Source: Burkholderia sp. D-99 (lineage in GTDB: Bacteria; Pseudomonadota; Gammaproteobacteria; Burkholderiales; Burkholderiaceae). Taken from it: a stretch of 64,000 bases of DNA. The stretch is taken from positions 1,488,001 to 1,552,000 of the forward strand of contig NZ_JAAOXM010000001.1 in the NCBI RefSeq assembly GCF_011605345.1, given 5' to 3'. A program made the translations under genes and the position numbers. A model generated the notes under the pieces. It was not told the origin of the DNA and searched no databases. It worked only from the letters and a program-made list of their open reading frames with translations. Shown here piece by piece: positions 28,466-55,485 of this stretch (position 1 is its first letter; the number at the start of each line of letters is the position of its first letter).

Positions 28466-28485
28466 ATTCGTCGGAACCGACGAAT
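28466..28485. promoter_or_regulatory. Regulon palindrome A (perfect)
   Basis: ATTCGTCGGAACCGACGAAT: two perfect 9-base arms around AA. This is the strongest copy of the ATTCGTCG-N4-CGACGAAT motif, placed for control of the thiolase and CoA-transferase operon. Confidence 0.75.
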
Positions 28486-28521
28486 TTTCGATTGCGTCGC
28501 ACTGCGCGGCGATGCTCATCC

Positions 28522-28545
28522 GGATTCGTCGGTTTCGACGAATCC
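28522..28545. promoter_or_regulatory. Regulon palindrome B (perfect 10-bp arms)
   Basis: The arms GGATTCGTCG and CGACGAATCC are perfect complements around GTTT. It is placed upstream of the plus-strand fusion gene and shares the core with the sites at 28466, 40661, 40702, 52640 and 55351. Confidence 0.75.
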
Positions 28546-28623
28546 GTCTCCGATCGGCTCCGCAATAATCCATTACGGCGGTCTCGCCGTTGCTCATCGA
28601 CCCATCGTTGGAACACTCACACC

Positions 28624-30969
28624 ATGTCCCTTTCCCTGTCCACCCCTGTCATCGTCGGCGTAGGTCAGTTCACCGAGCGGATCGGCTCACCGTCCTATCG
28701 CGCACTAAGTGCCGCCGAGATCGCAGCCGAGTCGGCAACGCGCGCGATCGACGATGCGCTGTCGCTCGACCGACTGCGCGACCATATCGATGCAATCGCC
28801 ACCACCCGAACGTTTGACGATTCGAATCCGCTACGCGCACAACCGTTCGGTCGTTCGAACAATTTCCCGCGCTCCGTTGCCGGCCGGCTCGGCATTGCGC
28901 CGCGCATCGCGGTATGGGAAAAAGGGGGAGGCGACTCGCCGCAAAAGCTCGTCAACGAGTTCTGCGCGCGTCTGGCCAACGGTGAATGCCGCATGGTGCT
29001 GATTGCCGGCGCGGAGAATATCTCCACCGCCCGGTGGCTCAAGTCGGAAGGCAGAACGGCAGATTGGTCGGAAGACGTGGACGGCAGCGTCGATAACCGC
29101 GGCATGGGACTGCACGGCCTCGTCTATCGCTACAACACGAGCCACGGTCTGGTCGGCACGCCGCCGACATACGGGCTGTGCGAAACGGCGCGGCGCACGG
29201 CGCTCGGTCAGACGACTGCGGAATACGGCATCGAGATGGGGAAGCTGTTCGCACCCTTTACTGCCGTGGCTGCCGCCAATCCGTATGCGTCATCCGCCGT
29301 GTCGCCGCTCACTGCTGAAGAACTCGTGACTGTCGGCGAGCGCAACCGCATGATAGCGTCGCCGTATCCGCAGCGGCTCGTTGCCCGGGATCAGGTCAAT
29401 CAGGGCGCCGCGCTCCTGCTGACAACCGTCGGTGTAGCACGCGAGCTCGGCATCGACGAGCGGAAATGGGTGTTTCTGGTCGGTCATGCAGCAGTCACTG
29501 AACGCGAAGTGATGGAGCGCCAACATCTCGGCCAGTATCCGGCCGCGGTGCTCGCTTGCCGCGATGCAATGCAGCAGGCTGGCGTCACGACCGACGATCT
29601 TGCGTTCTTCGATTTCTACAGTTGCTATCCGATCGCCGTGTCGAGCGTCGCGATCGATGGTCTCGGCCTGACGGCAGACGATCCGCGAGGCCTGACCGTG
29701 ACAGGCGGCCTGCCCTATTTCGGCGGCCCGGGGAACAACTATTCGATGCACGCGATCGCGACGATGGTCAAACGTCTTCGCGAACACCGCGACACCTTCG
29801 GCCTGATCGGCGCGAACGGCGGCTACCTGTCGAAGTATGCGGTCGGCATTTATTCAACGAGCCCCGTGCCGTTCGCGCCAAACGATTCCGCACACCTGCA
29901 GGCCGAAATCAACAGCTGGCCCGCACCGCCGCGAGCCACGACGCCACAGGGCCGCGCGACGGTCGAGACGTTCACTGTTGTGTATGCGAAGGGAATTCCC
30001 GATTACGCGGTCGCCATGTGCCGCAACGCGGACGGGGCCCGCTTTCTCGCGAAAACGGAGGCCGGCGACACGCGCACCGTCGACGAAATGCTCAATGGCG
30101 ATTCCGTCGGACGCACGGTCTGTGTGTGCGCGACCGATCGCGGCAATCGGTTCGCGTTCAGCGAGGCACGCCTCGACGAACTGCTTCCACGACGGGCTGC
30201 AGCGCTGCGCGAATCGTACGATTTCGCAAAGGTCGAACGTCGAGGCCACCTTTTGATCGTCACGATCGACCGCCCGGATGTACGCAACGCGCTGCACCCG
30301 CCGGCCAATGAGGAATTGGCCGGGATCTGGGATGCGTTCGAAGCCGATCCTGATCTCTGGGTCGCGATCCTGACCGGCGCCGGCAGCGACGCGTTCTCGG
30401 CCGGCAACGACCTCAAGTACACGGCCAGCGGTAATCCGATGTGGATTCCGCAAAGCGGCTTCGGCGGCCTTACCGCACGCGTCAGAACCAAGCCGGTGAT
30501 TGCCGCGGTCAATGGCCACGCGATGGGGGGCGGCACGGAAATGGCGCTCGCGTGCGACATCGTCGTGGCCGACGAACGCGCGTCGTTCGCGCTGAGCGAA
30601 GTCAAGGTCGGCGTCGTGGCCGCCTGCGGTGGCCTCGTTCGCCTGCCACGCGAAATTCCGCGCAAGATCGCACTCGAACACATCCTGACCGGTCGTGCGA
30701 TTCACGCGCGGCGAGCGGCCGAACTCGGCCTCGTCAATCGGGTGACGCCGACTGGCGAAGCGCTGGCTGGCGCGCTGGGCATCGCGGAAGAGATTCTGTC
30801 CGTGTCGCCGACATCGGTGCGTGTGTCGATGAAGATCGTCAACGATGTCGATGCAGGCGACCGTACGACGCCGAGCCGCCACCTCGACGAGCTGTATACG
30901 AGCGAGGACTACCTAGAGGGGCCGAAGGCGTTCAAGGAAAAGCGCAAGCCGGTGTGGAAGAACCTGTGA
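28624..30969 (+). CDS. Fusion of a thiolase-like protein (SCP2-thiolase-like, TLP type) and an enoyl-CoA hydratase
   Basis: 781 residues in one frame. Residues 1 to about 515 are a thiolase-like protein of the mycobacterial TLP/STLP kind: the opening PVIVGVGQFTERI; GGGDSP at 101-106 in the place of the nucleophile Cys; FYSCYPIAVSSV at 331-342; His376 in NNYSMHAIA; and GANGGYLSKYAVGIYST at 396-412. After a short linker, residues 533-781 form a complete crotonase with the oxyanion segment SAGNDLKY (592-599) and both hydratase Glu residues, 639 (GGGTEMALACD) and 659 (SEVKVG). The hydratase half should be active, while the thiolase half lacks the usual Cys and may bind, hydrolyse or retro-aldolise instead. 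Start 28624 fits the family; frames further upstream cross the operators. Confidence 0.9.
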   Translation: MSLSLSTPVIVGVGQFTERIGSPSYRALSAAEIAAESATRAIDDALSLDRLRDHIDAIATTRTFDDSNPLRAQPFGRSNNFPRSVAGRLGIAPRIAVWEKGGGDSPQKLVNEFCARLANGECRMVLIAGAENISTARWLKSEGRTADWSEDVDGSVDNRGMGLHGLVYRYNTSHGLVGTPPTYGLCETARRTALGQTTAEYGIEMGKLFAPFTAVAAANPYASSAVSPLTAEELVTVGERNRMIASPYPQRLVARDQVNQGAALLLTTVGVARELGIDERKWVFLVGHAAVTEREVMERQHLGQYPAAVLACRDAMQQAGVTTDDLAFFDFYSCYPIAVSSVAIDGLGLTADDPRGLTVTGGLPYFGGPGNNYSMHAIATMVKRLREHRDTFGLIGANGGYLSKYAVGIYSTSPVPFAPNDSAHLQAEINSWPAPPRATTPQGRATVETFTVVYAKGIPDYAVAMCRNADGARFLAKTEAGDTRTVDEMLNGDSVGRTVCVCATDRGNRFAFSEARLDELLPRRAAALRESYDFAKVERRGHLLIVTIDRPDVRNALHPPANEELAGIWDAFEADPDLWVAILTGAGSDAFSAGNDLKYTASGNPMWIPQSGFGGLTARVRTKPVIAAVNGHAMGGGTEMALACDIVVADERASFALSEVKVGVVAACGGLVRLPREIPRKIALEHILTGRAIHARRAAELGLVNRVTPTGEALAGALGIAEEILSVSPTSVRVSMKIVNDVDAGDRTTPSRHLDELYTSEDYLEGPKAFKEKRKPVWKNL

Positions 30970-30988
30970 TTCGTACGTATCGGTCGAA

Positions 30989-34458: not shown

Positions 34459-34743
34459 GATCGTTGCTCGATAGTTCATTGTTCAAGGCAGGAAATTGCT
34501 ATGTCGACTGTCCGCATGCTGTCTTGTCCTGGTGTGCGCGGTCGTGCGGAGGGATCACGATGCACATTACATTCGGAATCAGGATTCTGTTTCTGAATTT
34601 TTAGCGTCATTTCCCTGTCGTTCAATGCGTGCTTTCCCTTAGCATTGCGGACGGCCTGGACAGCACGATACGGATGGTGTCAGCGACCCGCGGGGTACTG
34701 CATAATGCGAACCTGGTTCGCAACAATTGACAGCCCAGCGCCC
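34459..34743. promoter_or_regulatory. Divergent control region between P450 and TetR genes
   Basis: This 285-base region is AT-richer than its neighbours. It contains GAATC-AG-GATTC at 34576-34587 on the P450 side and the palindrome at 34706-34722 on the TetR side. The regulon motif of blocks 4 and 6-8 is absent, so the P450 operon is probably governed by the TetR protein. Confidence 0.55.
34706..34722. promoter_or_regulatory. Candidate TetR operator
   Basis: TGCGAAC-CTG-GTTCGCA, perfect 7-base arms, directly follows a CATAAT -10-like hexamer at 34701-34706 and lies 22 bases before the TetR start. Binding there would cover the TetR transcription start, a typical autorepression layout. Confidence 0.6.
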
Positions 34744-35460
34744 ATGCCCGAATCCGAGAAGTTTCCGGACAAATCGAAGAGCCGACGCCAGCTCTCCGCT
34801 CGCACTCCGGCACCAGCCGAACAGCACGCCGATGTTTTGCCGGCATTGCGTCCTCCGCGTCAATCGCGCAGTGAAGCAACGCTAGCCAACATGCTTCGAG
34901 CCGGGCGCGAATTGATCGAACAGCACGGTGACTTCGACGATGTCGTCATTGCCGACGTCATTCGCGCAGCCGGCACCTCGACCGGTGCGTTCTATTGCCG
35001 CTTCAAGGACAAAGATGCGTTCGTTGCGGCAGTCGTGGACGCAACGTTCATCGAGCTCCGGGCCGACGCCGACAAAACCATCGAGGAAGACGCCGTTTGG
35101 CGCAGCGGTGACGCGCGCGCAATCATCGGCGGCATCGTCCATCACTACACCAATATGTGCCGACGCAACCGCGGTGTCTTCAGAGCCGTCCTGCGCTATA
35201 TCGCAACCGGCGCCCCGGACTCACATCCAATGCGCCTGCTCGATTGCCACATCAAGGATCTCGTCATACCAGTCCTCGCGCCACTTCTGACTGGCCGCTC
35301 GACCAAGGTGTCGACCCAGGAAATCAGATCCGCGATCCAGATGATCTCCAGCACGCTCGCGATGGCCGTGCTAACGGATCCCGGTCCGATGCGTTTCGAG
35401 GGCGGAACGCTGGAAAGCCAGTTGCGGCTGATGATGCAGCGCTACTTGCGCATCGACTAA
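34744..35460 (+). CDS. TetR-family transcriptional regulator
   Basis: About 238 residues. After a charged, Pro-rich N-terminal tail, the helix-turn-helix lies at about 50-95: ATLANMLRAGRELIEQHG, VVIADVIRAAGTSTGAFYCRFKDKD. A variable ligand-binding helical domain follows. Two in-frame ATGs lie upstream (34645, 34705), but the latter overlaps the candidate operator, so 34744 is preferred. It is divergent from the P450 operon and is its likely repressor; the inducer may be the P450 substrate or a CoA thioester. Confidence 0.88.
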   Translation: MPESEKFPDKSKSRRQLSARTPAPAEQHADVLPALRPPRQSRSEATLANMLRAGRELIEQHGDFDDVVIADVIRAAGTSTGAFYCRFKDKDAFVAAVVDATFIELRADADKTIEEDAVWRSGDARAIIGGIVHHYTNMCRRNRGVFRAVLRYIATGAPDSHPMRLLDCHIKDLVIPVLAPLLTGRSTKVSTQEIRSAIQMISSTLAMAVLTDPGPMRFEGGTLESQLRLMMQRYLRID

Positions 35461-35572: not shown

Positions 35573-36997
35573 TCAATTGCGCCTGACTGTGATGGTCTGC
35601 GGTTCGGTGCAGGCCAACATCCCTTCGACGCCATGCTCGATGCCCAGGCCAGACTGGCCATGGCCGGCGAACGGCGCATCTGGAGAGAGATACATGCTTT
35701 CGTTGATCCATACCGTTCCGCTTCCGATGCGTTCGGCGACTTGCGCGGCGAGCACTTCGTCGCGCCCCCAAATCGAACCGGCGAGACCATACGGACCCGC
35801 GTTGACGCGCTCGACCACCTCGTCGATCGAGTCGTAGCGCAAGATCGGCAATACCGGGCCGAATGCTTCCTCCGACACCACGCGCGCGTCCTCCGGCGGA
35901 TTGTCGACCAGCGTAACGGGAACGAAATACCCAGGTCCGTCCGGCACCTTCCCCTGAAAACAGATATTCAGACCGGCTCGACGCGTCTCGTCGATCAGAT
36001 CGAGCACACGGCGATACTGACGCGCATTCTGGATCGGGCCAAGCTGGCTGCGCCGATCCGTTCCTGGACCAACCACCACGTCCTTCGCATACGCAATCAG
36101 ACCGTCGCGCACCGCGTCGTAACAGTCACGATGCACGTACAGTCGCTTAGCCGCGACACAAACCTGCCCGCTGTTGGTGAAAGCTGCCCAGAACAGCGAC
36201 GGGATCAGCGCATCGACATCTGCATCGGGCAGCACGATCGCCGCATCGTTGCCACCGAGTTCGAGCGTGAGCCTCTTGAGCGTCGGCGCCGCGCCTGCCA
36301 TCACACGCCGCCCCGTTTCGGTCGAACCGGTAAAGCTCACCTTATCGACGCCATCGTGTGCGCTGAGCCAGGGCCCGAGATCGTCACCACCACTGACCAC
36401 GTTGATCACCCCCGGCGGCAATATGTCGGCCAGCAGCTCCGCAATGCGCAACACGGTCAGCGGCGTCAGCGGCGACGGCTTCAGTACCACGGTATTGCCG
36501 ACCAGCAGTGCCGGAATGACTTTCCACCACGCCAGCAGAACCGGGAAATTCCACGGTGCCAGTGCGGCCACTACGCCCAGCGGCACGCGCCGCGTGATGC
36601 TGCGGCGCTGCGGGTTGTCCTCGTTGACGACTTGCTGCGGGAACGTCAGCTTGCACTGACCCTGCATGAACCGCAGCAGGCTATTGAACTCGAACTGCGC
36701 AAACGCGAGCGGCTTGCCCTGCTCCCGTGTCAGCAGCGCCGCGAGTTCGTCGCGCGCGACTTCGATCCGCGGCGCGAACTGTTCGAGCAATGCGCGGCGC
36801 TGTTCGATCGGAACAGCACGCCATGCCGGAAAGGCACGACGCGCAGCCGCGACGGCGTGATCTAGCTGTTCCCGCGTGCAATCCGGCGCGTGTGCGAATA
36901 CCTGTTCGTCGGCCGGATCGACCACCGGCAGCAGCACGTCTCCGCTCACCAGTTCGCCGTCGATCAGCATGTGAAACGGATGCGACTGATCCATCAT
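35573..36997 (-). CDS. NAD-dependent aldehyde dehydrogenase
   Basis: A 474-residue ALDH: APWNFP, FTGSTETG, Glu246 in LELGGNDA and nucleophile Cys280 in GQVCVAAKRLYVH. It pairs with the zinc alcohol dehydrogenase 38 bases upstream to take the P450 product from alcohol to acid. Two adjoining ATG codons (36997 and 36994) follow a strong GGAGGAG site. It is the last gene of the racemase-ACAD-ADH-ALDH operon. Confidence 0.92.
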   Translation of the reverse strand: MMDQSHPFHMLIDGELVSGDVLLPVVDPADEQVFAHAPDCTREQLDHAVAAARRAFPAWRAVPIEQRRALLEQFAPRIEVARDELAALLTREQGKPLAFAQFEFNSLLRFMQGQCKLTFPQQVVNEDNPQRRSITRRVPLGVVAALAPWNFPVLLAWWKVIPALLVGNTVVLKPSPLTPLTVLRIAELLADILPPGVINVVSGGDDLGPWLSAHDGVDKVSFTGSTETGRRVMAGAAPTLKRLTLELGGNDAAIVLPDADVDALIPSLFWAAFTNSGQVCVAAKRLYVHRDCYDAVRDGLIAYAKDVVVGPGTDRRSQLGPIQNARQYRRVLDLIDETRRAGLNICFQGKVPDGPGYFVPVTLVDNPPEDARVVSEEAFGPVLPILRYDSIDEVVERVNAGPYGLAGSIWGRDEVLAAQVAERIGSGTVWINESMYLSPDAPFAGHGQSGLGIEHGVEGMLACTEPQTITVRRN

Positions 36998-37035
36998 GAA
37001 CTCCTCCGTTGGAATAATCCGGTTGGTGGGCCGCA

Positions 37036-38145
37036 TCAGGGCAGCAGGACGATCTTCGTGCACAAGCCGCGATGCTGATCGTCGATCGCTTCGTTGATAC
37101 GCGGAAGCGGATACGTGCGAATCATCTTCTCGAACGGAAACCGGCCTTCCAGATGCAGCGCCATCAGTTGTGGCAGGAACACGTCGGGCTCGCTATCTCC
37201 TTCGATGATGCCGCGATAGGTGAACCCGCCACGCATCAACTGAAGGAGCGTGCCGGGCAGCGGGAGTTCGCGCTCGCTGGCTGGCGGGACCCCGACAAAA
37301 CCGAACGTCCCGCGCGACGCCAGGATGCGCGGAACGGCTGAAATCACCGCGTGGCGCCCGCTTGTATCGAGCACGTAGTCGATGCCGTCCGCGCAGATTG
37401 CGCGCGCCGCATCAGCCAGATCGCCGGTCGCCGCCGGGTCAAGCACGTGGGTGGCGCCCAGTTCGAGCGCAAGCTCGCGCCGGCCTTGATGCGGCTCAAC
37501 CACGATAATCGTCGTACATCCCTGGATCACCCCGCCCATCACCGCGCTGAGCCCCACCGCACCGCCGCCGATCACCATCAGCGACGAGCCCGCGCGGCAG
37601 GCCATCGCGCGCATCACCGCGCCGGCACCCGTCTGCACGCCGCAACCGAGCACGCCTGCCAGCTCGAGCGGCACGCCATCCGGCACCTTGACGATATTGC
37701 GTTCCTTCGCAATCGCGTGCGATGCGAACGACGACTGGCCGAAGAAACCACCGGAAACGGCGTCGCGTGCGGCGCGCAGCGTTTTCGAGCCATCATCGCG
37801 CACGCCGAAATAGTTGAGTGACGTGAATGCCTTGCAGTAAGGCGATGCGCCCGCCGTGCAACAGGAGCAGCGGCCGCAGGACAAGAAGGTCAACGCGACG
37901 CGATCGCCCGGCTTTACCTTGGTGACGTGCATCCCCACCCGCTCGACGATGCCCGCGCCTTCGTGGCCGAACACGGCCGGCATCGTCATCGGGAAATAGC
38001 CTTCCTGCGCAACCAGGTCGGTATGGCACACGCCCGCTCCGACGATACGAACGAGCACTTCGTCGACACGCGGCTCATCCAGCTCGATCGATTCGAGCAC
38101 AAACGGCGCATTAGGCGAGTGCGTAACGGCTGCAAGGATCTTCAT
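37036..38145 (-). CDS. Zinc-dependent alcohol dehydrogenase (aryl/terpenoid alcohol type)
   Basis: A 369-residue medium-chain dehydrogenase of the class-III/benzyl-alcohol branch. The catalytic zinc set includes Cys40 (GVCHTD) and His61-Glu62 (GHEGAGIVERVG). The structural zinc cysteines are 90, 93, 96 and 104 in CGRCSCCTAGASPYC. NAD binding is in VIGGGAVGLSAV. Relatives oxidise benzyl, perillyl or geranyl alcohols, which fits a terpenoid route. Start 38145 is supported by AGGTG upstream and the family opening; further upstream codons cross a palindrome. Confidence 0.92.
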   Translation of the reverse strand: MKILAAVTHSPNAPFVLESIELDEPRVDEVLVRIVGAGVCHTDLVAQEGYFPMTMPAVFGHEGAGIVERVGMHVTKVKPGDRVALTFLSCGRCSCCTAGASPYCKAFTSLNYFGVRDDGSKTLRAARDAVSGGFFGQSSFASHAIAKERNIVKVPDGVPLELAGVLGCGVQTGAGAVMRAMACRAGSSLMVIGGGAVGLSAVMGGVIQGCTTIIVVEPHQGRRELALELGATHVLDPAATGDLADAARAICADGIDYVLDTSGRHAVISAVPRILASRGTFGFVGVPPASERELPLPGTLLQLMRGGFTYRGIIEGDSEPDVFLPQLMALHLEGRFPFEKMIRTYPLPRINEAIDDQHRGLCTKIVLLP

Positions 38146-38208
38146 CGTGATAACACCTCGATTGGCGGCGAGTAGAGAGCGGATCTCATTTTTCGGCCTT
38201 TTTCCGAT

Positions 38209-38225
38209 ACCGTCGAAGCGACGGT
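38209..38225. promoter_or_regulatory. Palindrome upstream of the alcohol dehydrogenase
   Basis: ACCGTCG-AAG-CGACGGT, perfect 7-base arms, lies 64-80 bases upstream of the ADH start in a 139-base gap after the ACAD gene. It shares GTCG/CGAC with the regulon motif, but its spacer is three bases and its flanks differ. It may be an internal operator or a transcript hairpin. Confidence 0.35.
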
Positions 38226-38284
38226 GCATCGTGCGTCAGTGCGTGCGGACAGGTCGAACTCCGTTCGGTTCGATTTCGACATCC

Positions 38285-39439: not shown

Positions 39440-39488
39440 GCTGCCCTGTCTCCTGTGAACCGTTGTTTGACGTCATTGACACGGCTGG

Positions 39489-40660: not shown

Positions 40661-40680
40661 AATCGTCCGAAACGACGAAT
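40661..40680. promoter_or_regulatory. Regulon palindrome C
   Basis: AATCGTCC-GAAA-CGACGAAT: the right arm is perfect and the left arm has two mismatches. It lies 72-91 bases upstream of the racemase start. Confidence 0.65.
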
Positions 40681-45649: not shown

Positions 45650-45765
45650 CGTGCTCCCTCCAGGAGATTTCAATGAATGTGCATTACGGGCCAGTATGCG
45701 CCGCCCGGCAGTACACTGTCGGATCCGGTACGACGCGCGGCGCCGGCCGCGCCGATCCACCCGCG

Positions 45766-46860
45766 CTATGCGGCTTGTACGAGCCCCTGCAACGACGCTG
45801 CGTGACGCCGCACGCGGCCCGGCGTGCCGTACAGCGTTCGATCGAACGCGATCCGCTTGTACCAGTAGTGCAGCCCGAGTTCGTCGGTGATACCGATCCC
45901 GCCGTGGACCTCGATGGCCGTGCGCGCGACGAACTGTGCGGCATCCCCCACGAGTGCCTTCGCGTGCGCCGCATACAGCGGCGCATCGTCCGGCATCACG
46001 TCGAACGCATGAGCGGCATACCAGACCAGCGCACGCGTCGGTTCCAGTTCGGTCGCCATCTCGGCACACATATGCTTGACCGCCTGAAACGTTCCGATCA
46101 GCCGGCCAAACTGGCTGCGCTCCTTCGTGTAAGCCACCGCATCGTCGATCATGCGCCATCCGGCGCCGAGCGCGTCGGCAGCCAGCATGATCCATGCCGC
46201 ATCCCGTAACCTCGCGTGCACACGGGCGTCCGCGCGCGGCAGCGTCTGCGCCTCGACTCGATCCAGCGCGAGTTCGACGGTCGGCCGCGTGCCGTCAATC
46301 GCGCTCAACGGCCTGCGCTGCACGCCGTTCGTCCTCGCGTCCACCAGGTACAGCGCACCCGATGTATCAGCAACGAGCCACGCATCGGCCTGCATGCCGT
46401 CCACGACGAACAGCGCGGTGCCGCTCAATCTGCCATTCACGCAGCGCAGCCCGGCGGCGTCGCGCACGCCGCTCCATGCCTCGCCGAATCCGACACCGAC
46501 GATGCATTCGCCCGTCGCCATCCGCGGCAACCATTCCGCTTGCTGACTTGCGCTACCGGCCTCACGCAGCGCCAATGTTGCGAGGACCACACTGCCGAGG
46601 AACGGCACTGGCGCGGCGGCGCGCCCCAGCTCCTCGGACACGAGCGCGGCATCGAGCACGGACAGTTCGAGCCCGCCAAAGGTTTCCGGCACGAGCAGCG
46701 CCGGAATGCCCAGCTCGCACAACGTGCGCCAGACTTCCCGATTCATCGGGCATGCACCGTCGACGGTGGCGCGGACGCGCGACAGCGTGCATTCGCCGAC
46801 CAGTGCACGTCGCAGGCTGTCGGCCAGCATGACCTGGTCTTGAGAAAGCGCAAATTCCAT
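45766..46860 (-). CDS. Acyl-CoA dehydrogenase-like subunit (FadE28/ChsE-beta type, probably non-catalytic)
   Basis: A 364-residue ACAD-fold protein with a weakened signature (VGVGFGEAWSGV) and, at the usual catalytic position, LYGTPGRVR, where the Glu is Gly. It lies 17 bases behind a second ACAD gene. This matches the alpha2beta2 ACADs of sterol side-chain breakdown, where two short-chain genes sit together and each subunit supplies part of one active site. AGGAGAC precedes ATG 46860. Confidence 0.85.
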   Translation of the reverse strand: MEFALSQDQVMLADSLRRALVGECTLSRVRATVDGACPMNREVWRTLCELGIPALLVPETFGGLELSVLDAALVSEELGRAAAPVPFLGSVVLATLALREAGSASQQAEWLPRMATGECIVGVGFGEAWSGVRDAAGLRCVNGRLSGTALFVVDGMQADAWLVADTSGALYLVDARTNGVQRRPLSAIDGTRPTVELALDRVEAQTLPRADARVHARLRDAAWIMLAADALGAGWRMIDDAVAYTKERSQFGRLIGTFQAVKHMCAEMATELEPTRALVWYAAHAFDVMPDDAPLYAAHAKALVGDAAQFVARTAIEVHGGIGITDELGLHYWYKRIAFDRTLYGTPGRVRRHAASLQGLVQAA

Positions 46861-46877
46861 GATTCGTCTCCTGTCGC

Positions 46878-48068
46878 TCAGATCGCCAGCTTCGGCTCGC
46901 GCGGCATCTCGAGGCCGCGCTCCGCAATGATGTTCTTCTGAATCTGTGCAGTGCCGCCGCCAATGATCAGTCCAAGGTCGAATCCTTCGCGATGCTGCCA
47001 TTCCCCGCCGGCGCGCACGCGCGGGTCTGCCTCGGTCAGCATGCCGATTTCACCGAGCGCGTCGAGCGCGAGCACGTCGATCTGATAGCGGGTCTCGCAT
47101 CCATACAGCTTCGTGACGAGCCCCGGCAGACCCGGGTCCTCCTTGCGGCTCGCGTGCGTGAGCAGACGCATGCCGTGACAATGCTGCGCCAGCACGCGGC
47201 CCTGGAGCCGCATCAGCCGGTCGCCCAGGAGCGGATCGTTCATCACCGGGTCGCCGTCGACCGTCTCGCTGCGCATCAGGTTCGCCAGCTCGCTGTAACG
47301 ACCGAGCAGCGCGGCCGGATTGGCAAGGTACGCGCGCTCATGGCAAAGCGTTGCGTTGGCAACGGCCCAGCCGTCCCCGCGTTTCCCGACGATCTGCTGC
47401 TGCGGCACGCGCACGTCGGTAAAGAAGACTTCGTTGAATTCGGCACGTCCCGTCATCGTCTTCAACGGACGGATCGTGATACCGGCAGTCTTCATCGAGA
47501 ACAGCAGGTAACTGATGCCCGCATGCTTCGGCGCCTCGCGTTCGGTGCGAACCAGGCAGAAGATCATGTCGGCCTCGTGCGCAGTCGACGTCCAGATCTT
47601 CTGGCCGTTGACGATGAAATCGTCTCCGTCCTCGACGCCGCGCGTCTGCAGCGAAGCGAGATCGGATCCCGCATTGGGCTCCGAATAGCCCTGACACCAC
47701 ACCAGTTCGCCGCGAAGGGTCGGCGCGATCAGTTCGCGCTTCTGCGCATCGGTACCGAGCTCGAGCAGCGTCGGCACCAGCATCGAGATGCCCTGGCTGC
47801 CGAGCCCGAGCGGCACGCCGGCACGCGCGAACTCCTCGGTGATCAGGTGCTGCTCCATGACGTCCGGTTCCGCACCGTAGCCGCCATACTCCCGCGGGAC
47901 CGTGCGGCCGGCATAGCCGTGTTCGAGCAGCAGCTTCTGCCACGCGATCTGCGCTGGCCCGGGGCGGCGGCCATGCTGCAGCGTGGCCGCCTCGTGACGG
48001 TGGCGCGCGAGAAATGCACGGACTTCGCCGCGCAGCGACTCATGTCTGGGGTGAAGCTTGAGGTCCAT
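46878..48068 (-). CDS. Acyl-CoA dehydrogenase-like subunit (FadE29/ChsE-alpha type, probably catalytic)
   Basis: A 396-residue ACAD: signature QGYSEPNAGSDLASL, WTSTAHEADMIF, and the C-terminal GGGTAQIQKNIIAERGLEMPRE, typical of the FadE28/29 group. The catalytic Glu is not in the C-terminal loop, so it is probably the helix-G residue in LCHERA. It likely forms a heterotetramer with the product of the next gene. Start 48068 gives the family N-terminus MDLKLHP; another ATG is 30 bases upstream. Confidence 0.87.
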   Translation of the reverse strand: MDLKLHPRHESLRGEVRAFLARHRHEAATLQHGRRPGPAQIAWQKLLLEHGYAGRTVPREYGGYGAEPDVMEQHLITEEFARAGVPLGLGSQGISMLVPTLLELGTDAQKRELIAPTLRGELVWCQGYSEPNAGSDLASLQTRGVEDGDDFIVNGQKIWTSTAHEADMIFCLVRTEREAPKHAGISYLLFSMKTAGITIRPLKTMTGRAEFNEVFFTDVRVPQQQIVGKRGDGWAVANATLCHERAYLANPAALLGRYSELANLMRSETVDGDPVMNDPLLGDRLMRLQGRVLAQHCHGMRLLTHASRKEDPGLPGLVTKLYGCETRYQIDVLALDALGEIGMLTEADPRVRAGGEWQHREGFDLGLIIGGGTAQIQKNIIAERGLEMPREPKLAI

Positions 48069-48194
48069 GTAAAGGCCTGTCGTAATGTTCCGATGCAATG
48101 TTGAACCGTGCCGCGCCGGTCGACGGACGACTGTCGGACCGAACGCCTGGCTCCCTGTCCTGCCTGTCGACCGAAAGCGGGCACCCCTACGCTG

Positions 48195-49364
48195 CTATTC
48201 CAGCTTGTCCGACAATCCAAGCGAGCGCCCGATGATCTCGAGCATGACTTCCGACGTGCCGGCGAAGATTCGCGACACGCGTGCGTCGCGATACATCCGG
48301 CTGATCCGGTATTCCTCCATGTAACCGGCGCCGCCATGCAACTGAAGGCAATCGTCGATCACACGGTTTTCCAGTTCCGATGTGAGGAGCTTGGCCGACG
48401 CCGCTGTCGCCGCCGTCAGGCGTCCGGCGTTGTGCTCGATGACGAGCGCATCGATCCACGTCTGCATCGCATCGAGTTCCGCGCGCCGGCGGGCCAGCAC
48501 GAACCGCGTGTTTTGCAGGGCCCCGAGCGGGCGCCCGAACGCACGCCGCTCTTTCACGAACGGCAGCGTCAGGTCGAACGCTACCTGCGCGTGCGCGATC
48601 GACTGGCACGCGCTCAGCAGGCGTTCCTCTGCCAGACCTTCGGTCAGGTAAGCGAAACCGCACGCGGGGTCGCCCAGCACGTTCGAGCTGGGCACCCAGA
48701 CGTCCTCGAAAAATAGCTCGGTCGTATCCTGCGCATCGAGCCCGAGCTTGCTCAACCGTTCGCCGCACTCGAAGCCCTTCATTCCGCGTTCGACGACGAA
48801 GATTCCGAACGCGCGGCGCTCGTCCGGGTTCGTCCGCGCCACGACGAGCACCGCATCGGCATTCAGCCCGTTCGATATGTATGTTTTCGTGCCGTTGATG
48901 AGCCACCCGCCGTCCCGGCGCTCGGCGCGAGTACGGATCCCGGCCAGGTCGGAGCCTGCCTGCGGCTCGGTCATCGCAACGGCAAGAATCGTCGTACCGC
49001 GGGCAGCGCCCGCCAGCCACCGATGCTTCTGTTCGTCGTTCCCGAGGCGTCCGATGTAAGGTGCCACCAAGCGCGAATGGAGCGTCAGGTACACGCCGAT
49101 GTCGCCATGGCGGATCATTTCCTCGTACAGAATCTGCTCGTAGCGGAAATCAGCCATCCCGGCGCCGCCGTACGCTTCGTCGGCCCACATCAGCAACAGG
49201 CCGTTCGCGCCGGCCTTCTCGAAGATTGCCCGATCGCAACAGCCCCGCGCACGCCACTCATGCACATGCGGCGCAACTTCCTTCTGAATGAATCGGGAGA
49301 CTGCATCCCGGAACTGCTCGTGTTCGGGATCGAAGATAAGGCGGCGTGTCGAGGACTGGGACAT
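48195..49364 (-). CDS. Acyl-CoA dehydrogenase, long-chain type
   Basis: A 389-residue ACAD: VAMTEPQAGSDLAGIRTRAERRD-type signature region, LAEERLLSACQ with the probable helix-G catalytic Glu as in long-chain ACADs, and a C-terminal IFAGTSEVMLEIIGRSLGL lacking Glu at the alternative position. It is the third ACAD in the FadB operon, 126 bases before the heteromeric pair, and probably handles an earlier, longer intermediate. The start at 49364 gives the family length. Confidence 0.88.
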   Translation of the reverse strand: MSQSSTRRLIFDPEHEQFRDAVSRFIQKEVAPHVHEWRARGCCDRAIFEKAGANGLLLMWADEAYGGAGMADFRYEQILYEEMIRHGDIGVYLTLHSRLVAPYIGRLGNDEQKHRWLAGAARGTTILAVAMTEPQAGSDLAGIRTRAERRDGGWLINGTKTYISNGLNADAVLVVARTNPDERRAFGIFVVERGMKGFECGERLSKLGLDAQDTTELFFEDVWVPSSNVLGDPACGFAYLTEGLAEERLLSACQSIAHAQVAFDLTLPFVKERRAFGRPLGALQNTRFVLARRRAELDAMQTWIDALVIEHNAGRLTAATAASAKLLTSELENRVIDDCLQLHGGAGYMEEYRISRMYRDARVSRIFAGTSEVMLEIIGRSLGLSDKLE

Positions 49365-49516
49365 GGTGTTCAAACGTGAATGTGAGGGTTGCCGACGGCG
49401 ATTCTCCGCCGGACGTCCGTGTCGAGCATGTCGGCCCGGGAGCCGTCCGTATTGCCGCCATGTCCGGCAGGCGAAGCGATCGGCTCGATGGACACCGGTC
49501 ACCTCGCCGTCCTTGA

Positions 49517-50299
49517 TCAGCGCGGTGCCATGCGGATCGCGCCGTCCAGTCGGACACACTCGCCGTTGAAATAGCCGTTCACGATCATCGTTTCGACGAG
49601 CTGTGCGAATTCCGCCGGCTGGCCGAAGCGCTTCGGAAAAGGCACCGATGCAGCCAGCGCCTCCTTGACGTTGTCAGGTGCCGCCTGCATTAGCGGCGTA
49701 TCGAAGATGCCGGGCATGACCGTGTTGACGCGTATGCCTTCGCTCATCAGATCACGCGCGATCGGCAACGTCATGCCGGTCAATGCAGCCTTCGAAGCGC
49801 TGTATGCCGCCTGCCCCATCTGCCCGTCCTGTGCCGCCACGGACGCCGTATTGACGACGACCCCGCGTTCGCCGTCTTCCAATGGCTCGAGCTTCAGCAT
49901 GCCGGCCGCCGATTTCGCGATGCAGCGGAATGTCCCGACCAGATTGATTTGTAGGATTCTGTCGAAGCTGTCAATTGGAAAATGCCGAATCTCGCCGGTC
50001 TTCCGGTCGCGGCCCACCGTCTTTGCGGTGAAACCGGTGCCGGCGCAATTGACCAGTACGCGCTCCTGGCCGTGCGCGGCGCGCGCGGCAGCGAATGCCG
50101 CGTCGACCTGCTCGTCGGACGTGACGTCGACCTTGCAGAACAAGCCGCCGATTTCCCGCGCCAGCGCTTCGCCCTGTTCGACGCTCATGTCGAACAGGGC
50201 GACCTTCACGCCGTGAGCCGCGAGGCGGCGTGCAGTCGCGGCGCCGAGGCCCGATGCGCCCCCCGTAACGATGGCGGCGGTGCATGAGTTCAGTTGCAT
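49517..50299 (-). CDS. SDR-family 3-hydroxyacyl-CoA dehydrogenase (HSD17B10-like)
   Basis: A 260-residue SDR: TGGASGLGAATA at 12-23, LVNCAG, Ser153, Tyr166 and Lys170 (AAYSASK). The insertion GRDRKTGEIRHFPIDSFDRILQINL and the ending NGYFNGECVRLDGAIRM are typical of 2-methyl-3-hydroxybutyryl-CoA/type-2 3-hydroxyacyl-CoA dehydrogenases, which fits branched substrates. AAGGAGACGCC precedes ATG 50299. It lies 122 bases after the FadB-like gene. Confidence 0.9.
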   Translation of the reverse strand: MQLNSCTAAIVTGGASGLGAATARRLAAHGVKVALFDMSVEQGEALAREIGGLFCKVDVTSDEQVDAAFAAARAAHGQERVLVNCAGTGFTAKTVGRDRKTGEIRHFPIDSFDRILQINLVGTFRCIAKSAAGMLKLEPLEDGERGVVVNTASVAAQDGQMGQAAYSASKAALTGMTLPIARDLMSEGIRVNTVMPGIFDTPLMQAAPDNVKEALAASVPFPKRFGQPAEFAQLVETMIVNGYFNGECVRLDGAIRMAPR

Positions 50300-50421
50300 G
50301 GCGTCTCCTTGAATCCTTTCAGTGGGAACCGACCTTCGATCGGTTCGGAACGGTTGTCTTCCGCTCGACGTATTGCCCGCACACGGGTGCAAGGTCGAGT
50401 GAAGCTGCAATCCCGCGTGTA

Positions 50422-52575
50422 TCACGCAGGGTAGTAACGAGCCCCTGCCGCCGCCATCGCACGCATGGTCGGTGTCGCGACATAGGTCGCGCCGAGCTCG
50501 GCGTGGCGGTCGCACATTGCGACGACGTGATCGAGACCGAGCCAGTCGGCATACTTGAGCGCGCCGCCGGCGTGCACGGGAAAACCGAGCCCCAGGACGA
50601 GTGCCATATCCAGTTCGATTGCGGTCGCGACTACGCACTCATCGAGCACACGCGCCGCTTCGACGATCATCGGCAGCATCATGCGTTCGATGATCACGTC
50701 GTCCGGGAATGCGCGCGGGCCATTCGATTGAAGGGTCGCGACCAGCGCATGGGCATCCGGCGATGAGCACTTCGACGGCCGCCCCGCCCGGGCGGCGTCG
50801 TACCGATAGAATCCCTCGCCCGATTTCTGCCCGTAGCGTTGCCGTTCGACCATCAGTCCGAGTGCACTGCCGCCGACCGGCGGCATCCGGTCGCGGTAGC
50901 CGGCACCGATCACGTCGACGACACGGTCGAGCACGTCCATCCCGATCACGTCCAGCAAGTACGCCGGCCCCATCGGCCAGCCGAAACCCTCCATCGCGCG
51001 ATCGACGGTTTCGAAATCGGCGCCGTCCTCCAGCAGACGAAGAAATGCATTGACGTAGGGCATCAGCACGCGGTTGACGACGAAACCCGGACAGTCGCGC
51101 ACGATGATCGGGGTCTTGCCCAATGCAACTGCGTACCCCGCTGCCGTCGCCACTGCCGCGTCGCTCGTCCGGCTGCCGCGTACCACCTCGACCAGTCGCA
51201 TCTTCGACACCGGATTGAAGAAATGCATGCCGACAAGCTGCTCCGGACGCGCTAGCGAGCGGGCCAGTTCATCGATACCGAGGCTCGACGTGTTCGAAGC
51301 CAGCACCGTATCGGCAGGCACCAACCGCTCGAGTTCGGCGAGTACGCTACGCTTGACATCAGGATGCTCGACTACGGCCTCGATGGCAAAGTCGACCTCA
51401 TCCAGGCCGGCATCGTCGTGTTGTGGCGTGATCGACGCGTAACTATCGTCAGCCTGCCCAAGGCCGGGCCAGCCGCTCTGCACATGCTGCTCCAGTTGCT
51501 TGCGAACCGCGTCCATTCCTGCGTCGAGCCGTGCTTGCGAGATGTCCTTCATGCGCGTCGGGATGCCATGGAGTGCGTTCGCGTACGCAATTCCACCGCC
51601 CATCGTTCCGGCACCGATCACGGCAGCCCGCGAAACCGGCCTTGCCGCCTGCGCGGAACGTTTGACCTGCTTCTTGAGCACCTGCTCATTGAGAAAAATC
51701 TGGACCAGCGACGCAGCTGCTTGTGTACGTGCGACACGGCCGAATGAATCGGCTTCGTTATCGAGTGCGTCCTCAAGATCGTGCACTGCGGCGCGCTCCA
51801 TCGTCTCGGCCGCAATTGCAGCGGCGGGTCGGTTCAGGTCGTGCAGTGCGCTGATCCTGGAACGGGCGCGGTCGATAACATCCGCTGCCTCGCGCGCCGA
51901 TATCGGCAGGCACACCTTCTTGCGTCGTTGCGCAGCTCGCCAGTCAATTTCGCCTGTCGCCGCGCGGCGCAGCCATGCGAGCGCGGTCTCTCTCAGCGCA
52001 TCGGGCGCAACGACTTCATCCACCACGCCTGCCGCGATCGCCGCATTACCATCGAACGACTGCCCCGTGGCAACCCAGTCGATCGCGGCGGCCAGACCGG
52101 CCACGCGCGATAGCCGGGCCGTGCCGCCCAGCCCCGGAATCAACCCGAGCGAGACTTCCGGGAGCCCGACCCGGGCATTCGACGCCATCACGCGAAACGC
52201 GCCGAGCAGCGCCAGTTCGAGCCCGCCGCCGAGCGCATAGCCGTTGATCGCAATCACGCTCGGAACGGGGAGATCCTCAAACGTGGTCACATGCGCGTCG
52301 TTCGTGCGTACGGCAGTGGCAATTGCGTCCGCGGATTGTCGGAACATCGCAGAAAACTCCGTGATGTCGGCGCCGACGATGAATACGTCCTTTGCGCTTG
52401 TCACAAGCACGCCGCGCACTGCTGACGTCGCGGCAATACATACCGTCGCCTTCTGAAATTCGTCGATCGTGCGAGCGTCCAGCTTGTTGATCGCGGCATC
52501 GCGTCGATCGAATCGCAACTCGACAAATCCGTCGACCAACGGCAGCACGCTGATGTTTTCACCTTGAAACAACAA
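50422..52575 (-). CDS. FadB-like fatty oxidation complex alpha chain (enoyl-CoA hydratase / 3-hydroxyacyl-CoA dehydrogenase)
   Basis: A 717-residue bifunctional enzyme. The N-terminal crotonase part has INGYALGGGLELAL and GLPEVSLGLIPGLGGTARLSR with both Glu residues. The NAD part has VIGAGTMGGGIAY near 320, ASNTSSLGI, and GMHFFNPVSKM with the catalytic His. A C-terminal helical domain follows. I place the start at TTG 52575: it gives the family opening MLFQG and lies five bases after GGAGG, which would otherwise be inside the coding sequence. It is first in an operon of six genes, with a regulon palindrome upstream. Confidence 0.92.
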   Translation of the reverse strand: MLFQGENISVLPLVDGFVELRFDRRDAAINKLDARTIDEFQKATVCIAATSAVRGVLVTSAKDVFIVGADITEFSAMFRQSADAIATAVRTNDAHVTTFEDLPVPSVIAINGYALGGGLELALLGAFRVMASNARVGLPEVSLGLIPGLGGTARLSRVAGLAAAIDWVATGQSFDGNAAIAAGVVDEVVAPDALRETALAWLRRAATGEIDWRAAQRRKKVCLPISAREAADVIDRARSRISALHDLNRPAAAIAAETMERAAVHDLEDALDNEADSFGRVARTQAAASLVQIFLNEQVLKKQVKRSAQAARPVSRAAVIGAGTMGGGIAYANALHGIPTRMKDISQARLDAGMDAVRKQLEQHVQSGWPGLGQADDSYASITPQHDDAGLDEVDFAIEAVVEHPDVKRSVLAELERLVPADTVLASNTSSLGIDELARSLARPEQLVGMHFFNPVSKMRLVEVVRGSRTSDAAVATAAGYAVALGKTPIIVRDCPGFVVNRVLMPYVNAFLRLLEDGADFETVDRAMEGFGWPMGPAYLLDVIGMDVLDRVVDVIGAGYRDRMPPVGGSALGLMVERQRYGQKSGEGFYRYDAARAGRPSKCSSPDAHALVATLQSNGPRAFPDDVIIERMMLPMIVEAARVLDECVVATAIELDMALVLGLGFPVHAGGALKYADWLGLDHVVAMCDRHAELGATYVATPTMRAMAAAGARYYPA

Positions 52576-52639: not shown

Positions 52640-52659
52640 CATCGTCGGAAGCGACGAAT
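52640..52659. promoter_or_regulatory. Regulon palindrome E
   Basis: CATCGTCG-GAAG-CGACGAAT: the right arm is perfect and the left arm is perfect except for the second T (A) and the first base. It lies 65-84 bases upstream of the FadB-like start. Nearby are GACGA-G-TCGTC (52665-52675) and a lone half-site ATTCGTCG at 52686-52693. Confidence 0.68.
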
Positions 52660-52775: not shown

Positions 52776-53546
52776 TCAGAGCGACGACACCAGATGCCCG
52801 CCATCGACCGCCAGCGCCGCACCGGTAATCCATGAACCCGCATCCGTCGCAAGCAACAGCAGCGCCCCATCGAGTTCTTCCGGCATTCCAAGACGCCTCA
52901 TCGGGATGCGCTTGATCATCGCCTTGCCATGCTCGGTTTCCCATAGCCCATCGGTCATCTCGGTACGCACATACCCGGGCTCGATAGCATTGACGCGAAT
53001 ACCGTAACGCGCCCACTCGAGCGCCAGGCTGCGCGTCATGTGCACGACCGCCGCCTTCGACGTCGAGTAAGCCGCGATGCCGGTCGCGACGCGTTCGCCC
53101 TGGATCGATGCGACATTGACGATCGCGCCGCCCCGCGCCAAATCCCGCCAGCGTCGGGCGGCTTCCGTCGCGACCAGCCACGCACCGCGCAGGTTGATCG
53201 CCATCACTTCGTCGAACCGTTCGATCGGCTGATCGATGGCCAGTCCGTCCCCGGAAATACCTGCGTTGTTGACGACCACGTCGAGCGGTGCCCCGGTCGC
53301 GGAAATCGTGTCGAACCCGGCCGATACGGATGCGGGATCGGTAACGTCAAGCGGCAACACCGTCACGTCCGGCGCGCCAAGTTCGCGCAGCTCCACGGCT
53401 AGCGCCTCGAGTCGCGCAACTCGTCGCGCACCGACAACGACCGACGCACCGCAGCGGGCGGCCAGGCGCGAAAAGTGTTCACCGAAACCCGACGACGCGC
53501 CCGTTATCAGGACGCGTCGCCCCTTCAACTTGATACCCAGATCCAT
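52776..53546 (-). CDS. Short-chain dehydrogenase/reductase
   Basis: A 256-residue classical SDR: ITGASSGFGEHF (14-25), VVNNAGIS, Ser147, Tyr160 and Lys164 (AAYSTSK), and an ending WITGAALAVDGGHL. It probably oxidises a hydroxyl in the pathway. It follows the acyl-CoA ligase by 79 bases and ends the operon at the terminator 52702-52727. Confidence 0.9.
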   Translation of the reverse strand: MDLGIKLKGRRVLITGASSGFGEHFSRLAARCGASVVVGARRVARLEALAVELRELGAPDVTVLPLDVTDPASVSAGFDTISATGAPLDVVVNNAGISGDGLAIDQPIERFDEVMAINLRGAWLVATEAARRWRDLARGGAIVNVASIQGERVATGIAAYSTSKAAVVHMTRSLALEWARYGIRVNAIEPGYVRTEMTDGLWETEHGKAMIKRIPMRRLGMPEELDGALLLLATDAGSWITGAALAVDGGHLVSSL

Positions 53547-53625
53547 TCCTTCTCCCGTTCAGAGGGATGCTTCCATATCCGCCGTCCGTATCGATGCACC
53601 GCTGGACGTCGCCAAGGTTGCAGAC

Positions 53626-55266
53626 TCACCCGAGCTTTTGCGTGTAGCGCGCCCTGAGGCGCTTCTTGTCTAGTTTGCCGACGCTCGTCCTGTCGATCTG
53701 CTCGACCAACTCGAACGCGTCCGGCATCGCATACGACGGAATAACCCCGCGTTCTACCAGACGGTGCATGTGTGCACGCAACGTGCACGCATCCAGCGCC
53801 GCATCCAGCTCGACCTTGACCACGGCCAGCGGCCGCTCACCCCACTTCTCGTCGGGTATACCGATCACCGCCACCTCGGCGACGCCTGGACATTGGCCAA
53901 TCAATCCTTCGAGCTCGACCGACGAAATCCACTCGCCGCCGCTCTTGATCACGTCCTTCGCACGATCGACAAGATGGAGGTACCCGTGCGCGTCAAAACG
54001 GCCGACGTCGCCCGTGTGCATCCAGCCGCCGTCCCACAGGGCGGCGCTGGCCTCATCGTTCTTCAGATAACCCTGCGTCAGATACGGCGTGCGCGCGACG
54101 ACCTCGCCAACCGACACGCCGTCTTCCGGCAAAGGGTCGCCGGCCGGGTCCACCACCCGAACCTGCGCCATCAGGATAGGCATCCCGGCCGTCGTGCGGA
54201 TATCTATATCGCGCTCTTCGCGCGCATCCGCATCGTCGATCTCGTCCAGAAGGTCCGTTTTGATCTGTGCCAGCGTCAACAGCGGGCAGCTTTCCGACAT
54301 CCCGTACCCGGTATAGATATCGATGTGGCGAGCGAGCGCCTGCCGGCACAACGTGCGCGGTAACGCGCTGCCGCCGATCAGTACCTTCCAGCGATGAAAA
54401 TCCGCGCCAGATGCATCCGGCGCCCCCAGCACCATGCTCAGCACCGTTGGAACGCAATGCGAGAAAGTCACGCGCTCACGCTTGACCAGATCGACGATCA
54501 CCGCCGGTTCGTATCGTCCCGGATAGATCTGCTGCCAGCCGCACAGCGTGGCGATGTACGGATAACCCCACGCATGCGCATGAAACATTGGTGTAAGCGG
54601 CATGTACACGTCGTTGCGCGAGAATCGTCCGTTCTCGCCCGCCTGGGAAACGCTTGCCAGCACCGTCAGGCAATGCAATACGATTTGTCGATGGCTGAAG
54701 CTCACGCCTTTCGGATTGCCGGTGGTGCCTGTCGTGTAATACAGCGTCGCGCGCGTGTTCTCGTCGAACTCCGGGAACTCATGCACCGGATCGGCAGCCG
54801 CCAACATCGATTCGTACTCGCCCGCCCATGCAAATCCGGGACGCACGACCTTGTCGTCACTGAGACAGATGAAGCGCGTGATCTGCGGTAGCTGCTCGCT
54901 AATTTGCTGAATCATCGGCAGGAAGTCGACATTCAGCAGCATCGTGTCCACGCCGGCATGATCGAGTGTGTACGCGAGTTGATCAGAGGAAAGGCGAAAA
55001 TTCGCCGTCATCAGCGTGGCTCCAAGCATCGGAACCGCAAAATAGGCTTCGAGATAGCGGTTGGTGTCCCAGTCGAGCACCGCAACCGTACTTCCTTTGC
55101 CAACCCCGATCCTCGACAGCGCGCTGCCGAGGCGATTGATGCGCTCGATCAGCGTCGCATAATCAAAACGCGCGAGGTCACGGTAGACGATTTCCTTGCG
55201 TGAGCGCTGCGCGATCGGCGTGACAAGCAGTTGCTTGATCAGCAGCGGAAAGGCGTACGGGTTCAT
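53626..55266 (-). CDS. AMP-forming acyl-CoA ligase, AlkK-like
   Basis: A 546-residue ligase: P-loop YYTTGTTGNPKG (176-187), the MPLTPMFHAHAWGYPY block typical of AlkK and other medium-chain ligases, YTGYGMSESCP, WMHTGDVGRFDAHGYL, and the C-terminal catalytic Lys531 in SVGKLDKKRLR. It is probably the main activating enzyme for the acid made by the P450/ADH/ALDH route or for a later intermediate. Start 55266 follows CTGGAGACAC; 73 upstream open codons cross the regulon palindrome and are rejected. It is divergent from the LAL regulator. Confidence 0.92.
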   Translation of the reverse strand: MNPYAFPLLIKQLLVTPIAQRSRKEIVYRDLARFDYATLIERINRLGSALSRIGVGKGSTVAVLDWDTNRYLEAYFAVPMLGATLMTANFRLSSDQLAYTLDHAGVDTMLLNVDFLPMIQQISEQLPQITRFICLSDDKVVRPGFAWAGEYESMLAAADPVHEFPEFDENTRATLYYTTGTTGNPKGVSFSHRQIVLHCLTVLASVSQAGENGRFSRNDVYMPLTPMFHAHAWGYPYIATLCGWQQIYPGRYEPAVIVDLVKRERVTFSHCVPTVLSMVLGAPDASGADFHRWKVLIGGSALPRTLCRQALARHIDIYTGYGMSESCPLLTLAQIKTDLLDEIDDADAREERDIDIRTTAGMPILMAQVRVVDPAGDPLPEDGVSVGEVVARTPYLTQGYLKNDEASAALWDGGWMHTGDVGRFDAHGYLHLVDRAKDVIKSGGEWISSVELEGLIGQCPGVAEVAVIGIPDEKWGERPLAVVKVELDAALDACTLRAHMHRLVERGVIPSYAMPDAFELVEQIDRTSVGKLDKKRLRARYTQKLG

Positions 55267-55485
55267 GTGTCTCCAGTTCTCTTTTCGTATCAAGGCGCGG
55301 CGAACATATGTGCCGGTAGCCTGTCCCAACTGTAGATCGGATGCCACGCACAGGCATCGTCGGATACGACGATTCCTGTCGACTCGGCAATCCCGATCGC
55401 CAGGGTCCAGTCCGGCGGGAAAATCCCGAACGCAGAGACTCGACTGCTTTGCTAGACTATACGGTCCGCTTTCCCGACTTCGCAA
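55267..55485. promoter_or_regulatory. Divergent region between the ligase operon and the LAL regulator
   Basis: This 219-base region holds the long palindrome at 55351-55378 about midway, so one site could control both the ligase operon and the regulator gene. Confidence 0.65.
55351..55378. promoter_or_regulatory. Regulon palindrome F (extended)
   Basis: The arms CAGGCATCGTCG and CGACGATTCCTG surround GATA and match at 11 of 12 positions, making this the longest symmetric copy. It lies 85-112 bases upstream of the ligase start and 108-135 bases upstream of the LAL regulator. Confidence 0.7.

Follow-up and report, generated by a model that had tools for sequence, protein, structure and literature searches.

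Palindromes ahead of acyl-CoA degradation operons in Burkholderia sp. D-99 as predicted operators of a LAL/MalT-type LuxR regulator

Introduction

Which protein would recognise a palindrome that recurs in the control regions of a degradation locus of Burkholderia sp. D-99, and which operons would it control? The locus lies within a stretch of 64,000 nucleotides (assembly GCF_011605345.1, contig NZ_JAAOXM010000001.1, positions 1,488,001 to 1,552,000 of the forward strand), which was analysed at its full length and is referred to as the window. Pfam and NCBIfam assign to the locus acyl-CoA ligases, acyl-CoA dehydrogenases, FadB, thiolases, CoA-transferase/racemase, alcohol dehydrogenase (ADH) and aldehyde dehydrogenase (ALDH), as well as a P450, a TetR gene and a LAL regulator. 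A sequence-only reading of the window had proposed that six copies of the palindrome define an undescribed regulon of six operons and had put forward the product of 55486-58200, the LAL protein, for a test of binding. Comparative evidence, namely restriction of the motif to one LAL clade, a link between recognition helix and operator, and the promoter geometry, points to the same protein. The palindromes are very probably operators of this LAL/MalT-type activator of the LuxR family, which is predicted to activate one operon per site.

Results and discussion

Six conserved palindromes in the window

A scan of the window for ATTCGTCG-N4-CGACGAAT with up to three mismatches gave nine matches, compared to a mean of 1.04 and a maximum of four in 100 shuffled sequences. 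Six of the nine are the palindromes claimed earlier (Table 1). All six are intergenic, as the sequence-only reading had described, and their spacers start with G on the plus strand in every case (6/6; "almost always" in that reading). In agreement with it, the same scan found no match in the control regions at 9175-9487, 25703-25919 and 34459-34743. The distance between palindrome centre and start codon of the assigned operon is 67-122 bp. The other three matches (30558, 41360 and 56076, three mismatches each) lie in coding DNA and had not been listed before. At the sixth palindrome (55355) the arms reach a length of 13 nt at 92%.

The closest named relative of the LAL protein (91% identity) is found in Burkholderia paludis MSh1, a species of the Burkholderia cepacia complex, and the palindromes were compared with a syntenic contig of B. 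paludis (87.2% over 33.8 kb). All 120 operator bases of the six sites are identical in B. paludis, including 24 of 24 spacer bases. The remainder of the same four intergenic regions is identical at 563 of 760 positions, and none of their 570 other 20-mers is fully identical.

A fixed distance to the −10 element

At five window sites a −10-like hexamer is located 33 bp from the palindrome centre, and at the remaining one (40661, which also has one mismatch in the core) the distance is 34 bp. At each site the hexamer is present on one strand only, and each site was therefore assigned to a single operon. The 33/34 offset was first read by eye off the window and then tested across species, using an approximate sigma-70 table as −10 matrix. 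A chance figure of 2.7e-9 was calculated for the six of six window sites with a threshold set after the scores had been seen and is not used as evidence.

Before the −10 elements were counted across loci, three kinds of rows were removed: sites within CGACGA tandem repeats (five rows, all from locus L109), sites whose distance to a start codon exceeded 260 bp, and flanks cut at a locus end. Out of 40 flank clusters reading in one direction, of which the window and B. paludis are two, 28 carry a −10-like hexamer at 33/34; any non-overlapping pair of offsets between 12 and 79 was found in at most three. Among 64 sites between divergent genes, the hexamer is present on one strand at 39. The geometry recurs in other genera. 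It corresponds to a class II (lux-box-like) arrangement, in which the inverted repeat replaces the −35 box at a fixed distance of 33/34 bp from the −10 element. The −10 hexamer is usually located at −12 to −7 from the transcription start, which would place the palindrome centre at about −42.5/−43.5.

Specificity within the genome

The loose pattern (up to three mismatches) occurs at 242 places in the 8.7-Mb genome (17 for a backwards control), and seven of seven off-locus near-matches that were inspected are situated inside an open frame of at least 143 codons. It was therefore rejected as a predictor of the regulon, and the core in combination with the −10 element was used instead. The refined core TCGTCG-N-WW-N-CGACGA is present at 10 places genome-wide, five of which are window sites. 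When a −10-like hexamer at 33 bp is included, exactly five matches are left in the 8.70-Mb genome, all of them in the window. With a spacing of 34 the sole exact composite match genome-wide (C6:142940) falls into a doubtful 143-codon frame. Allowing up to two mismatches in the composite yielded 86 forward and 85 reverse matches genome-wide (controls 7 and 6), a result that decides neither for nor against weak sites elsewhere. Genome-wide, the loose motif alone is thus unspecific, and its exact composite form at spacing 33 is confined to the window.

The motif is restricted to one clade of LAL proteins

The product of 55486-58200 combines the features of a LAL protein, i.e. large size, an NTPase region with a Walker A motif, a MalT-type TPR region and a LuxR/GerE helix-turn-helix (HTH). 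Residues 11-418 match the MalT N-terminal structure 8bob_C (E=1e-48), residues 455-794 the TPR family PF17874 (E=9e-31) and residues 841-897 the HTH family PF00196 (E=3e-19). The P-loop APAGFGKT fits [AG]x4GK[ST], the stricter pattern G....GK[ST] having no match, and the recognition helix reads STVRTHLRNI. The protein misses the NCBIfam cut-off for the MalT equivalog (362.9 vs 537 bits). A related LAL (E<=1e-110) is carried by 68 of 398 genomes of the family.

The thiolase-like/enoyl-CoA hydratase fusion encoded in the locus is present in only two of 65 Burkholderia genomes (the window's own and G122, the latter matching B. paludis in contig number and coordinates). The locus is thus accessory and the fusion too rare for a larger syntenic set, and the LAL was used as anchor instead. 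Seventy loci were gathered around LAL proteins of decreasing similarity, comprising 41 loci whose LAL reaches an identity of 41% or more (879 kb), 13 with 36-41% identity (247 kb) and 16 with more distant proteins (297 kb). The exact core TCGTCG-N4-CGACGA was found 88 times in the first set, not at all in the second and once in the third. Other spacers of 0-10 gave 0-3 cores each in the 41 loci, and everted arms at most six. The exact cores are intergenic in 83 of 88 cases (135.5 kb intergenic vs 743.6 kb coding DNA); genes were called by our own script, and some of the five coding cores may be errors of gene calling. A motif-free count also returned TCGTCG-N4 as the top palindrome with six-base arms, present in 33 of the 41 loci (next: 13).

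In a tree of the 70 LALs, made by a quick method and containing several long branches, all 33 proteins with exact intergenic sites fall into one clade of 41 rows (SH-aLRT 98), and none of the 29 proteins outside this clade has such sites. The motif-bearing clade spans several genera and includes an alphaproteobacterial plasmid. Whole genomes were searched with the strict composite in a set of 20 from two genera, ten with and ten without such a LAL. Seven of the ten LAL-bearing genomes contain it, with 16 oriented matches representing 14 palindromes, and 14 of these matches (12 palindromes) are located within 10 kb of the LAL gene. Two of the ten LAL-lacking genomes hold one match each.

These data bear on whether the palindromes merely reflect chance or codon bias, TCGTCG and CGACGA being common in GC-rich coding DNA. 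Such a bias would fit the 242 genomic matches of the loose pattern and the three coding ones among the nine of the window; we discard it as a cause of the six sites, because the motif is spacing-specific, mostly intergenic, conserved and linked to promoters.

A side observation concerns locus L109 (4728-4806), where tandem CGACGAAAT/CGACGAAAG-like repeats adjoin an exact core before an SDR gene, as if half-sites had multiplied.

Recognition helix and operator sequence

Members of the clade read T[VI]RTH[LV]R in the recognition helix, and sister groups have Lys or Glu in place of Arg. Loci of Lys-helix proteins contain other palindromes in the same frame (TNRTYC-N4-GRAYNA) with a −10 element at 33/34, namely TC[AG]T[CT]C-N4 together with IKTHLR, and TGGTCC-N4 and T[ACG]GTTC-N4 together with [VI]KSHLR. 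Counted descriptively and without a test, since the pattern TNRTYS was derived from the same loci, intergenic TNRTY[x] palindromes end in G (94), C (5) or A (3) in the 43 Arg loci, and in C (26) but never G in the 29 Lys loci, 24 of the 26 having a −10 element at 33/34. In a class of 15 other loci, with LALs of low identity, three such palindromes between genes end in C and none in G. Helix classes were assigned by regular expression, by which L142 is counted in K1, a placement differing from the tree, where it groups with K2. In class K1 the motif was unseen with six loci, and the TGGTCC and T[ACG]GTTC sites appeared with 23 loci. L138 and L139 have the helix IRAHLR, and palindrome searches of their loci revealed no motif.

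From these patterns we would put at about even chances that catabolic LAL activators share one grammar, consisting of TNRTYS arms, a four-base spacer with A/T centre and a −10 element at 33-34 bp, in which a T[VI]R helix goes with a final G and a T[VI]K helix with a final C. Paired palindromes of the type TCACGG-N4-CCGTGA occur next to two Glu-helix LALs (L155:3653-3703 and L157:11032-11082), and one palindrome of each pair has a −10-like hexamer at 34 bp. A third operator version, outside the TNRTYS form, is possible for this Glu-helix class of three loci, two of which are close relatives.

Proposed mechanism and competing explanations

We propose that the C-terminal HTH of the LAL protein would bind as a dimer to the 16-bp core TCGTCG-N-WW-N-CGACGA. 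Bound in place of a −35 box, with the centre of the site 33-34 bp ahead of the −10 element (about −42.5/−43.5 from the start), the protein could contact RNA polymerase and activate one operon per site. The NTPase/TPR part may sense a compound of the pathway, such that binding or oligomerisation would take place only with substrate present. The predicted local regulon would comprise six operons, through which a branched or alicyclic acid would be taken up, activated with CoA and degraded by beta-oxidation. The six-operon regulon of the sequence-only reading is supported by the comparative evidence. Its shared control of both neighbouring operons is not, as the geometry assigns one operon to each site.

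Several observations weigh against this model. Eight of the 41 clade loci have no exact intergenic core; four of them (L116, L119, L149, L150) contain one-mismatch sites with a −10 element, and no convincing site was seen in L074, L118 and L120. The strict pattern with spacing 33 is missing from three of the ten LAL-bearing genomes. No −10-like hexamer is present at 33/34 in 12 of the 40 one-directional clusters, and of the 64 sites between divergent genes 11 have it on neither strand and 14 on both. In CH34 only one of three sites exceeds the −10 threshold. L041 has an Arg helix and nevertheless two TCGTCC sites (13147 and 17249), from which it follows that Arg/Lys alone does not set the base and that other residues take part; this locus is useful for locating other specificity residues. 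Finally, all 70 surveyed loci were picked through their LAL, and the count in the 41 loci alone would also fit a co-inherited second regulator. Binding of the sites by an unlinked regulator, inherited together with the pathway, is nevertheless very unlikely, for the motif, in several genera and on an alphaproteobacterial plasmid alike, is restricted to a single LAL clade, and the operator changes along with the LAL helix.

Repression by the same LAL protein would be conceivable in so far as the operator overlaps the −35 position, a placement that is workable for a repressor too, and as the available part of PMC9628970 describes the Streptomyces LAL protein SCO6993 as a repressor. We regard it as very unlikely, because activation by way of contact with polymerase calls for a fixed −10 distance such as the 33/34 bp found here, which repression does not need, and because MalT and AlkS are described as activators in what was available of PMC9628970 and PMC8784404.

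The serious rival is the KstR-like TetR-type protein encoded at 34744-35460, which might bind the palindromes as a repressor. Palindromes of this size are generally bound by TetR dimers, TetR-like genes were found in 17 of the 41 loci of the motif-bearing set (LAL identity of 41% or more), and a gene in L075 is annotated kstR_2. On the other hand, 16 loci with exact intergenic sites yielded no TetR-like gene, e.g. L073 (three sites in 42.7 kb) and L151 (three sites), an absence that is no proof, as L075, one of these 16, has an annotated TetR gene missed by our gene calls and most stretches span 19-20 kb. Moreover, the motif tracks LAL clades and LAL recognition helices, and the TetR gene has a different, fully conserved palindrome of its own. 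Binding by the TetR-type protein therefore seems highly improbable. This second palindrome, TGCGAACC-T-GGTTCGCA, is part of a block just ahead of the TetR gene and opposite the P450 operon, and probably serves the TetR-type protein as its operator, apart from the LAL regulon. The earlier division of the locus into two regulatory groups holds in this respect, the P450/TetR region lacking the LAL motif and having its own conserved palindrome.

Relation to known systems

The proposed system can be set beside several known ones, as described in the available parts of the cited sources. AlkS of Pseudomonas putida GPo1, an activator of the LuxR/MalT type, has an inverted repeat of 20 bp as its site (PMC8784404). 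As predicted here for the LAL protein, a MalT-related activator of the LuxR family serves a hydrocarbon pathway from an inverted-repeat operator upstream of the target promoter (PalkB). AlkS differs in controlling its own gene by feedback, whereas no window site faces the LAL gene, and in serving an alkane pathway (PMC8784404); the likeness is one of description and leaves operator sequence and offset aside. With MalT the LAL protein shares the domain order of NTPase, TPR and LuxR HTH. The E. coli MalT box, in contrast, is the short GGA[TG]GA (PMC9628970), and the palindromes of this locus are symmetric 16-bp inverted repeats, placed at a constant distance. The lux box of LuxR is a 20-bp inverted repeat centred at −42.5 (PMC3376562), so the palindromes resemble it in length and, if transcription starts 7 nt below the −10 element, in position within about 1 bp. 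LuxR differs in that the LAL has no match to an autoinducer-domain family in Pfam or NCBIfam, and the operator sequences are unrelated. FadP, LiuR and PsrA also control acyl-CoA degradation, partly in Burkholderia and Ralstonia (PMC5343134); these are TetR/MerR regulators, and the main text of that paper, as far as available, mentions neither LuxR nor MalT nor LAL.

A description of the TCGTCG operator was not found in the literature searched, which included the accessible portions of PMC5343134, PMC3376562, PMC9628970, PMC8784404 and PMC6449761. Within this literature, the regulon and the relation between helix and operator appear to be new. The term "undescribed regulon" in the sequence-only reading can be kept, within the literature searched, for the operator, though not for the principle, since AlkS already provides an example of a LAL activator acting on an inverted repeat. 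As far as PMC9628970 and PMC8784404 were available, MalT, AlkS and SCO6993 are the only LAL proteins for which they name an operator. The present analysis links a single class of regulators with an operator, with a promoter geometry and with target operons across several genera. Among the strains is the model strain C. metallidurans CH34, whose LAL is 73% identical and of the same helix class, and which is open to experiment. The link between helix and operator offers a direct route to predicting the specificity of other LALs and, if the grammar is true, sequence data could reveal which regulons belong to many orphan LAL proteins. With a known inducer, the locus might also supply inducible promoters for use in sensors that detect terpenoid or alicyclic acids.

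Target operons and neighbouring features

Table 1 Coordinates of predicted operators, their putative target operons and further regulatory features in the window
Feature	Coordinates	Strand	Mismatches	Description
Operator 1	28466..28485	-	0	Toward thiolase operon; -10-like AACAAT 28440-28445, 33 bp from centre
Operator 2	28524..28543	+	0	Toward thiolase-like/enoyl-CoA hydratase fusion; -10-like AATAAT 28564-28569, 33 bp
Operator 3	40661..40680	-	2	Toward CoA-transferase III/racemase operon; -10-like CATCAT 40634-40639, 34 bp
Operator 4	40702..40721	+	3	Toward MFS importer operon; -10-like CAGAAT 40742-40747, 33 bp
Operator 5	52640..52659	-	2	Toward FadB operon; -10-like TACACT 52614-52619, 33 bp
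Operator 6	55355..55374	-	3	Toward ligase operon; -10-like TACAGT 55329-55334, 33 bp
Target of operator 1	25920..28408	-		Thiolase (27230-28408), CoA-transferase III (25920-27083); putatively co-transcribed
Target of operator 2	28624..30969	+		Thiolase-like (TLP1/SCPx type) plus enoyl-CoA hydratase fusion
Target of operator 3	35573..40589	-		CoA-transferase III/racemase, acyl-CoA dehydrogenase, ADH, ALDH; putatively co-transcribed
Target of operator 4	40833..44549	+		MFS importer, acyl-CoA dehydrogenase, kinase-like gene; putatively co-transcribed
Target of operator 5	44579..52572	-		FadB, SDR, three acyl-CoA dehydrogenases, metallo-beta-lactamase fold hydrolase; putatively co-transcribed
Target of operator 6	52776..55266	-		Acyl-CoA ligase, SDR; putatively co-transcribed
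LAL regulator	55486..58200	+		904 aa; NTPase region, MalT-type TPR region, C-terminal LuxR/GerE HTH
TetR-type regulator	34744..35460	+		Likely ATG at 34744; probable regulator of the P450 group
Palindrome TGCGAACC-T-GGTTCGCA	34706..34722			Inside 30-bp block 34696-34725, identical in B. paludis

Several acyl-CoA dehydrogenases of the locus show likeness, below the cut-offs, to cyclohexanecarbonyl-CoA and pimeloyl-CoA dehydrogenases, and P450terp is the nearest solved relative of the P450 by sequence (401 bits). The substrate of the pathway would be a branched or alicyclic acid, probably a monocyclic terpenoid in view of the likeness of the linked P450 to P450terp. The kinase-like gene shares 50% identity with a CP031586 gene that carries the annotation phosphotransferase, and it has no match in NCBIfam.

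Operator 6 points at the ligase operon and away from the LAL gene. Autoregulation of the LAL gene is unsupported at this site, where the −10 scores on the LAL side are −3.8 (window) and −6.9 (B. paludis). One site does point at the LAL gene in each of the loci L112, L115 and L119, so that the absence of autoregulation is not universal.

A second LAL, 28% identical, is encoded just left of the window (G000:C1:1482901-1485615; loci L034 and L047). No operator was found for it, as the −10 scores at 33/34 do not exceed 2 for any of 15 near-palindromes located between the genes of L047. Its gene adjoins parallel racemase, SDR, acyl-CoA dehydrogenase, FadB and thiolase genes. The fusion protein encoded at 28624-30969, for its part, has full-length relatives with 42-43% identity on two sphingomonad plasmids.

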